Shown here: piece after piece, positions 2,611-3,810 of the stretch
How positions within the stretch are numbered: position 1 is the first letter of the stretch
How the letters are laid out: each line of letters begins with the position of its first letter
The notes under the pieces: generated by a model
Seen by the model: only the letters and a program-made list of their open reading frames with translations
Told to the model about the DNA's origin: nothing
Databases searched by the model: none
Source of the DNA: an uncultured euryarchaeote
Lineage (GTDB): Archaea; Thermoplasmatota; Poseidoniia; Poseidoniales; Poseidoniaceae
Assembly: GCA_937894115.1 (NCBI GenBank)
Contig: CALBFP010000179.1
Span: 1-40,213, forward strand
Length of the DNA: 40,213 bases
Reading direction: 5' to 3'
Translations under genes and position numbers: made by a program

Positions 2611-3525
2611 TCAACCGACTCGCTCGATAACACGGACGTGGTCACCGCGCATGTTGAGCGTCATAGGGATAGGCTGTTCGTACAACTCCATGCTGACCTC
2701 TTCTTTGGTTTCAGATACGCTGGTAACTCGGGCTTTTTCACCCTTGAATGCTCCTGATACGATTTCAACAATGCATCCCACTTCGATACCAGAAGTGACC
2801 GCTTTGGGTTCCAAATACGGCAAGATATCCATCAAGGGCGCCTCACCTGGAAGAACTTGTTTTGCGTTCTTTAACGGAGTCTGAGAGATTCCACGACGTG
2901 CTGTTGGATCACGTCCTCCAGAACGGCCGATGAGTTTCTCAACGTGATGAAGCGCACTGGATTCAACAAAAACGTAGCCTCGCATGTTGTTGGGATGGAG
3001 AACGGAGAAGATTTCACCCTGCAAAGCAGTGAGTGAACCGCTGCCGTGAAGGCGAGCATACATCTCATCAGCAACCCGGTGTTCGGAGCCGATGGCTGTT
3101 TTGACGATGTAAAGAAATGAACCAACCGAACCGTACATTTCGCGGAACAGGACATCCGCTCCGTCCATATCCATATTCGAAAACAGGCAATTCTTCTCTT
3201 GAAGCGTTCCTGGGTCGACCCATTCATGGGCAACATAGCGTCCTGTGGGCGTGACGTCCTCCGAACTGGTCGCCACAAGAATCGGCATTACATCGACGAG
3301 GTTTCGACCCATATCGATACCGCGTTCTGGCCCATTTCCGATGTATTCGAGCGTGTCAAGAGGAAGACCTGTTGCTTCAGAAACGCGATTGAGGACTTCT
3401 TCTGGAGTGTCCCCCACGCCCCAAACACCATCCCAGAGTCCTGGGAAATCGTTGTCGTCTTTGCTTCTGCTAAGGAGCAAAAGTTTCTCTTCAAATCGTA
3501 CAAATGCGATAAATGCTTCAGTCAT
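2611..3525 (-). CDS. spt5: Transcription elongation factor Spt5 with an N-terminal Nudix-like domain
   Basis: The C-terminal half is archaeal Spt5, which binds the RNA polymerase clamp with Spt4 and promotes processivity. The NGN domain spans about residues 134-200 (FLYIVKTAIGSEHRVADEM, then MRGYVFVES), and the KOW domain spans about 246-300 (VEIVSGAFKGEKARV, ending GDHVRVIERV). Archaeal Spt5 is usually about 150 residues; this one is 304. The extra residues 1-112 look like a Nudix fold: a first strand AFIAFVRFEEKLLLLSRS, then FPGLWDGVWGVG, PEE and EATGL, resembling MutT-type sequences. The Nudix box is shortened and lacks the canonical REUXEE glutamates, so hydrolase activity is doubtful. 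The gene lies 18 bp downstream of secE, the usual archaeal pairing, and both read from the secE promoter. Spt5 identity is firm; the Nudix-like call is from pattern only. Confidence 0.88.
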   Translation of the reverse strand: MTEAFIAFVRFEEKLLLLSRSKDDNDFPGLWDGVWGVGDTPEEVLNRVSEATGLPLDTLEYIGNGPERGIDMGRNLVDVMPILVATSSEDVTPTGRYVAHEWVDPGTLQEKNCLFSNMDMDGADVLFREMYGSVGSFLYIVKTAIGSEHRVADEMYARLHGSGSLTALQGEIFSVLHPNNMRGYVFVESSALHHVEKLIGRSGGRDPTARRGISQTPLKNAKQVLPGEAPLMDILPYLEPKAVTSGIEVGCIVEIVSGAFKGEKARVTSVSETKEEVSMELYEQPIPMTLNMRGDHVRVIERVG

Positions 3526-3543
3526 GATACCACCACCTGATCC

Positions 3544-3810
3544 TCAAATGCCGAAAACGTCGTGAATCAGCCAAGGAATGAAGTTGTCCATAATGACAAG
3601 AAGAATGAATCCAATCGCACCAAGAACGAACAAACCAATACCGCAGACAATGCTGGTCTGCTTGAATTCTTGCGGGGTCGGCTTTCGAGCCATTCGGATG
3701 ATTCGTGCCCATGAGCCGCGAGAAATCTTGCGGAATTGGGCTTCAATCCAGTCTTGACGGTCCTGAACTGCATCCTCAAATGTGCGTGATTCGGTTTTTT
3801 CATCAGACAT
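3544..3810 (-). CDS. secE: Preprotein translocase subunit SecE (Sec61 gamma)
   Basis: Small essential subunit of the SecYEG/Sec61 protein-conducting channel in the cytoplasmic membrane. The product is 88 aa: an amphipathic cytoplasmic part including RIIRMARKPTPQEFKQTS, the family hallmark of an Arg-rich helix then KPT..EF, followed by a single transmembrane helix (about residues 55-77: GIGLFVLGAIGFILLVIM). The ATG at 3810 is chosen because the 48 residues in frame upstream are uncharacteristic and because a TATA-like box lies about 37 bp upstream. It is followed at 18 bp by spt5, a gene pair conserved in archaea; the ribosomal protein genes (L11, L1) often found next are absent here. Confidence 0.92.
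   Translation of the reverse strand: MSDEKTESRTFEDAVQDRQDWIEAQFRKISRGSWARIIRMARKPTPQEFKQTSIVCGIGLFVLGAIGFILLVIMDNFIPWLIHDVFGI

Follow-up and report, generated by a model that had tools for sequence, protein, structure and literature searches.

A catalytically degenerate Nudix domain fused to the N-terminus of Spt5 throughout the archaeal order Poseidoniales

In archaea other than those described here the NGN domain of Spt5 binds RNA polymerase and Spt4. The canonical archaeal protein, known from Pyrococcus (3p8b) and Thermococcus (9bct), consists of this NGN domain and one KOW domain. The Poseidoniales form has both domains in common with it, as well as the partner Spt4 and the neighbouring gene secE, but adds an N-terminal Nudix domain of 113 residues, a conserved linker helix and two insertions in the NGN domain. 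Within the NusG/Spt5 proteins, Aquifex NusG likewise has an additional domain peculiar to its lineage (PMC3382729). The Aquifex mini-domain, however, sits inside the NGN domain at the position of Spt4, whereas the Poseidoniales domain is an N-terminal Nudix domain. Another archaeal Nudix domain on an information-processing protein is found in HVO_1934 of Haloferax, a Nudix/eIF-2B domain protein whose partner is eIF2B-like and which is likened here by its description; it was reported to have been isolated together with a subunit of RNA polymerase (PMC8576121).

The eukaryotic cleavage factor Im protein CFIm25 (NUDT21), which binds RNA and nucleotides in the machinery forming pre-mRNA 3' ends and is the precedent for the function proposed below, likewise has a dead Nudix fold tied to transcript processing, a state which for the Poseidoniales domain is predicted from its residues. 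Human CFIm25 lacks two glutamates and hydrolase activity and still binds nucleotides, and in the Entamoeba protein Lys replaces three of the glutamates (PMC3695940). Binding of Ap4A by CFIm25 excludes RNA (PMC7705103). CFIm25 is a separate protein which binds UGUA RNA, whereas the Poseidoniales domain is fused to Spt5 and may bind RNA by analogy. We found no specific sequence kinship to CFIm25, which is not among the PDB profile matches of the N-terminal domain; the best of these are of the NADH pyrophosphatase and MutT types, and the closest relatives are archaeal stand-alone Nudix proteins. In the open-access literature we found neither a Nudix-Spt5 nor an Ig-like-Spt5 protein described, although domain databases may list the combination computationally. 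Nudix goes unmentioned in a 2026 survey of elongation factor domains which covers 40 archaeal proteomes (PMC13289920).

The window, that is the whole stretch of 40,213 nucleotides analysed here, contains the following features of interest, given in window coordinates:

2611-3525, minus strand: spt5 gene, 304 aa, with N-terminal pseudo-Nudix domain (open reading frame, Pfam and TIGR matches, orthologues)
3187-3525, minus strand: Nudix-fold domain, residues 1-113, catalytically degenerate (PF00293, Foldseek, hhalign)
3361-3420, minus strand: degenerate Nudix box, residues ~36-55 (GVGDTPEEVLNRVSEATGLP), with shortened loop, E16 replaced by R47 and E20 by A51 (alignment with relatives)
3115-3186, minus strand: linker, residues 114-137; contains the conserved MYGxVxSFL and a predicted helix at 123-134 (alignment, AlphaFold2)
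2806-3114, minus strand: NGN domain, residues ~138-240 (PF03439, TIGR00405)
3031-3048, minus strand: NGN insertion 2, about 6 residues, 160-165, HGSGSL (Spt5 alignment)
2881-2928, minus strand: NGN insertion 1, residues ~200-215 (GRSGGRDPTARRGISQ), basic and Gly-rich (Spt5 alignment)
2614-2805, minus strand: KOW domain region, residues 241-304 (PF00467 at 252-278)
3544-3810, minus strand: secE (Sec61 gamma), likely start ATG at 3810 (TIGR00327, E 9.2e-11)

The first-pass annotation had described a single frame of 304 residues with a normal archaeal Spt5 in its C-terminal half. The frame is confirmed, and lies on the minus strand, which had not been stated. The C-terminal half is indeed an Spt5: the equivalog TIGR00405 matches residues 139-302 with 94.5 bits (cut-off 69.95), the NGN domain (PF03439, Spt5-NGN) residues 138-199 with E 2.3e-10, and the KOW domain residues 252-278 above the cut-off with E 2.1e-5. 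The best solved relatives of residues 138-304 are the Spt5 proteins of Thermococcus, Pyrococcus and Methanocaldococcus. It departs from the normal form in the two NGN insertions. Orthologues of spt5 were identified in 55 of 60 related genomes. An identical copy (100%) of the window's Spt5 is encoded in a marine Euryarchaeota MAG, and its close matches are labelled Poseidoniales, Poseidoniaceae or Euryarchaeota, with the one exception of a MAG labelled Rhodobiaceae. The window belongs to a genome of the Poseidoniaceae (marine group IIa). Spt4 is encoded in the window's genome and in all 24 Poseidoniales genomes of our Spt4 survey; binding of the Poseidoniales Spt5 to RNA polymerase and Spt4 is predicted from the conserved domains.

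Both NGN insertions occur only in Poseidoniales among the Spt5 proteins aligned. The GRSGGRDPTARRGISQ insertion comprises up to 16 residues and is shorter in the second family of the order. In Thermococcus the NGN residues 12, 13 and 68 contact the non-template strand of the DNA immediately upstream of the bubble (PMC11616081). Because the GRSGGRDPTARRGISQ insertion lies only a few residues from the equivalent of Thermococcus residue 68 (in an alignment whose Pyrococcus sequence is approximate and which otherwise agrees with the alignment of the PDB match), it may add a DNA contact. Other Thermoplasmatota Spt5 proteins (L175-L182) have lineage-specific insertions of their own before the linker to the KOW domain, for example GKGYGRSKEPDTFG in marine group III; these sit elsewhere than the Poseidoniales NGN insertion.

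The spt5 gene follows directly on secE, with a gap of 18 nt to its start. Across the loci the start codon is ATG in 106 cases and TTG in 6, and the gap between the upstream frame (SecE in the window) and the spt5 start is 9-22 nt in nearly all of them. The dN/dS ratios of residues 2-113, calculated after Nei-Gojobori for congeneric and confamilial genome pairs, are about 0.015-0.2, and those of the NGN-KOW part in the same pairs roughly 0.005-0.08; as many dS values are near saturation, these ratios are indications and not precise rates. Evolution of the Nudix domain is faster than that of NGN-KOW by a factor of about 2-4, yet the N-terminal alignment has 17 invariant columns. The N-terminal domain is under purifying selection and is real coding sequence. 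An internal start near residue 130, which the first-pass annotation had named as a finding that would overturn its reading, is contradicted by the dN/dS ratios and by the conserved start codon and intergenic spacing. In one Poseidoniales MAG (L096:2501-3413) the Nudix-Spt5 match spans the frame, yet the open frame starts within the domain; this interruption is probably an assembly frameshift.

The Nudix assignment of the first 112 residues, originally made from a motif pattern, is borne out by Pfam, by profile-profile comparison, by the predicted fold and by phylogeny. The pattern itself is present as described between residues 27 and 54, with FPGLWDGVWGVG at residues 27-38, PEE at 41-43 and EATGL at 50-54. 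A Pfam search with the window sequence alone gave no Nudix match, and for that reason 54 Spt5 N-termini from both Poseidoniales families were aligned (alignment A1). Scanned singly, 38 of these 54 match PF00293 (NUDIX; best E 2.4e-6), so that the search with Nudix profiles, proposed in the annotation, fails for the window protein and succeeds for most of its orthologues. The AlphaFold2 model calculated from the full-length alignment has pLDDT values of mostly 70-94 over residues 1-110, and the order of its elements in the N-terminal domain, strand-strand-strand-helix(41-52)-strands-helix, is Nudix-like. Helix 41-52 lies between strands as in the loop-helix-loop of the Nudix fold, in agreement with the Foldseek matches. 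Most of the top Foldseek matches in the PDB are Nudix proteins, among them the MutT-related 3grn of M. mazei (E 1.6e-7, TM(target) 0.72) and BdRppH 3ees (TM(target) 0.71). The fold search suggested beforehand leads from the N-terminal domain mostly to Nudix structures. The NGN part of the full-length model is poorly folded and of low confidence, and therefore we make no inference from it on the placement of the Nudix domain. The linker motif MYGxVxSFL runs straight into the first NGN strand. We regard it as close to certain that Spt5 is fused here to a pseudoenzyme with the Nudix fold.

For the catalytic site the 54 fused domains were compared with 20 stand-alone or swivel-fused relatives. The enzyme box GX5EX7REUXEEXGU with its catalytic glutamates is found in none of the 54 fused sequences. 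The position of E16 is Arg in all 54 and Glu in all 20 relatives; E20 is likewise Glu in 20/20 relatives and without Glu in 54/54 fused domains. The Glu of the 'DWEH' loop is present in every relative and gone from every fused domain. E19 is Glu in the 20 relatives and is still Glu or Asp in 50/54 fused domains. The box loop is shorter in the fused form by two to four or more residues. Both the shortened box and the missing catalytic glutamates, noted at first in one sequence, therefore hold across 54. Among the residues that are invariant in the fused form and not in the relatives are R10, D32, R47, Y97 and D104, of which R47 occupies a former catalytic position and Y97 lies beside the former metal loop. 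Because the catalytic glutamates are lost and purifying selection is retained, the N-terminal domain is, as judged from its residues, a pseudo-Nudix domain and not an active hydrolase. The alignment shows an apparent loss of catalysis before the Poseidoniales radiated, with the altered site then fixed.

Outside Poseidoniales the A1 profile matches stand-alone proteins of about 133 aa and Nudix domains which follow an AcnX swivel domain. The consensus of these relatives reads VVT..L...KILILKRS..V.TYKGKWAGVSGY.E...PLERA.KEIEEETGL ... VHPFLF ... IDWEHTEY.WI.P.EI..YDTVPKL. The stand-alone family of Thermoplasmatota (DWEHTEY-W-TVPKL type) is homologous to the fused domain over its whole length, and hhalign aligns the two family profiles over 114 columns with a probability of 99 and E 2.7e-18. 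It differs from the fused domain in its complete box and loop Glu, and it is not linked to Spt5. Its closest solved relative is the Ap4A hydrolase 5cfi (E 9.6e-12). In the tree the fused domains form one clade (support 100/100) which groups with the stand-alone family (97/96); the stem of the fused clade is long, with 2.67 changes per site. The five further Nudix proteins from this genome that aligned were included and fall outside the group of fused and stand-alone proteins, so a recent paralogue within the genome is rejected as the source. We show a single in-frame fusion, on the stem of the Poseidoniales, of an archaeal Nudix gene of the stand-alone family ahead of spt5.

In other Thermoplasmatota (L236, L237, L253, L255) a Nudix domain of the parent family with intact box is located C-terminal to an AcnX swivel domain. 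The latter corresponds to the small subunit of enzymes of the aconitase X/phosphomevalonate dehydratase type, hinting at a link of the parent Nudix family to the isoprenoid pathway.

The Nudix-Spt5 fusion was found in more than 100 genomes, including one single-contig genome and assemblies named as single cells; an assembly artefact or an oddity of a single genome is thereby rejected. Full-length matches start at residue 1-4 in both Poseidoniales families, and the fusion is seen in both wherever the 5' end of spt5 is present. In a sample of 390 genomes of the phylum, ten Poseidoniales genomes gave no N-terminal match. Seven of them have no detectable spt5 and three have a C-terminal piece only, with no sequence ahead of it (G174 and G027, both at a contig edge, and G227), and a loss of the fusion in some Poseidoniales is rejected on these grounds. 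The Nudix domain on Spt5 is absent from marine group III and from the other Thermoplasmatota. Marine group III (family f3) is the sister lineage; its Spt5 has a short acidic tail only, and one genus of that group encodes the Nudix gene as a separate protein. A search of IMG/VR with the N-terminal profile found no viral relative. The Nudix-Spt5 fusion is real and order-wide, and gives a universal factor a domain architecture that is new. One Poseidoniaceae genus (L028:1273-2394, plus strand) has a further N-terminal extension ahead of the Nudix domain, in which CSWCG...HKLLH may be a C2H2 zinc finger (Pfam E ~0.15).

A check of Spt5 lengths, as recommended in the first-pass annotation for Poseidoniales, revealed frames of 270-320 aa in several other families of Thermoplasmatota. 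These longer proteins have an extra N-terminal domain of about 125 aa. It is modelled by AlphaFold2 as an all-beta sandwich (mean pLDDT 93.9), matches the PapD/ASH-like domain 6fvi in Foldseek (E 1.7e-5) and gives FixG_C and NPCBM_assoc/NEW3 matches in Pfam; these matches point weakly to an Ig-like (NEW3-like) fold. A profile survey of 145 genomes places this domain directly before the NGN domain in the families f6, f17, f24, f27, f30 and f35 (loci L156-L162, L164, L166-L170, L174, L186-L192, L195, L132 and L154). Judging from gene length and the known features of these groups, f17 resembles Thermoplasmatales, f27 Methanomassiliicoccales and f24 Aciduliprofundum. A common origin of the Nudix and the Thermoplasmata Spt5 N-terminal domains is rejected (hhalign probability 0.1). 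As the two domains are unrelated and share one position, Spt5 has gained an N-terminal domain at least two times in Thermoplasmatota. The initial statement that such a part is normally missing from archaeal Spt5 is hence correct for Nudix but not for N-terminal domains as such, since many Thermoplasmatota Spt5 proteins have a different one.

The explanation we prefer, to which we give a probability of roughly 60% as a whole, is that the fused pseudo-Nudix domain is a binding module on the polymerase. A sensor or scaffold on the polymerase, the function put forward in the first-pass annotation, is likewise a proposal. The fused Nudix domain lost its metal-binding glutamates and would since have served for binding. 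As the NGN domain would hold Spt5 on the clamp, the Nudix domain would travel on every elongating polymerase, probably adjacent to Spt4 and to the bubble's upstream edge. A replacement of Spt4 by the Nudix domain is rejected, given that Spt4 is encoded in every genome of the Spt4 survey. The exchange of a catalytic Glu for an invariant Arg, together with new invariants at or near former catalytic and metal-loop positions, suggests that the pocket is reused to bind an anion. From Nudix topology the new invariant residues should line this pocket, and the old substrate pocket (R47 with R10, D32, Y97 and D104) could bind an anionic ligand without metal, most likely nascent RNA or a nucleotide. Ligand binding would then tune elongation or termination via Spt5. 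That the job of the domain is RNA or nucleotide binding in particular is a tentative proposal to which we give slightly less than an even chance. Still more speculative, and on balance unlikely, is the specific version that the polymerase carries, via Spt5, a metal-free reader of nucleotides or RNA 5' ends derived from a dead Nudix enzyme of the Ap4A/NTP type.

The main rival, doubtful in our view, is a pure protein docking surface for a termination factor such as FttA, for the ribosome or for an RNA polymerase subunit, with no RNA or small ligand. Spt5 bridges to FttA in Thermococcus (PMC11616081), and in other families of Thermoplasmatota this place on Spt5 is taken by an Ig-like beta-sandwich, a typical protein-binding fold. 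The presence there of an unrelated domain suggests that a docking module is needed at the N-terminus and not a particular chemistry, and the faster evolution of the Nudix domain would also fit a looser scaffold role. Several of the newly fixed residues, however, fall on the former catalytic (R47) or near the metal-loop (Y97) positions, which a reused pocket explains better. It is very improbable that the domain, by means of a rearranged metal site, still hydrolyses nucleotides or RNA 5' ends in the vicinity of the polymerase: the acidic residue at E19 is mostly kept and the fold is intact, but the Arg at E16 and the absence of E20 and of the loop Glu are without exception. A functionless passenger or an untranslated N-terminus can practically be dismissed, for although the domain evolves faster than the Spt5 core, this reading is already contradicted by dN/dS ratios well below 1, by the invariant columns, by retention in both families and by the conserved start and spacing.

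Poseidoniales are among the most abundant planktonic archaea of ocean surface waters, and with a repurposed Nudix pseudoenzyme fused to Spt5 across the whole order they would have a new means of controlling elongation. If the domain did read nucleotides or RNA 5' ends, a nucleotide signal or the chemical state of the RNA end would influence elongation or termination. That other families carry an unrelated Ig-like domain in this place suggests that in Thermoplasmatota the N-terminus of Spt5 has repeatedly been the site at which new modules were attached to the polymerase.
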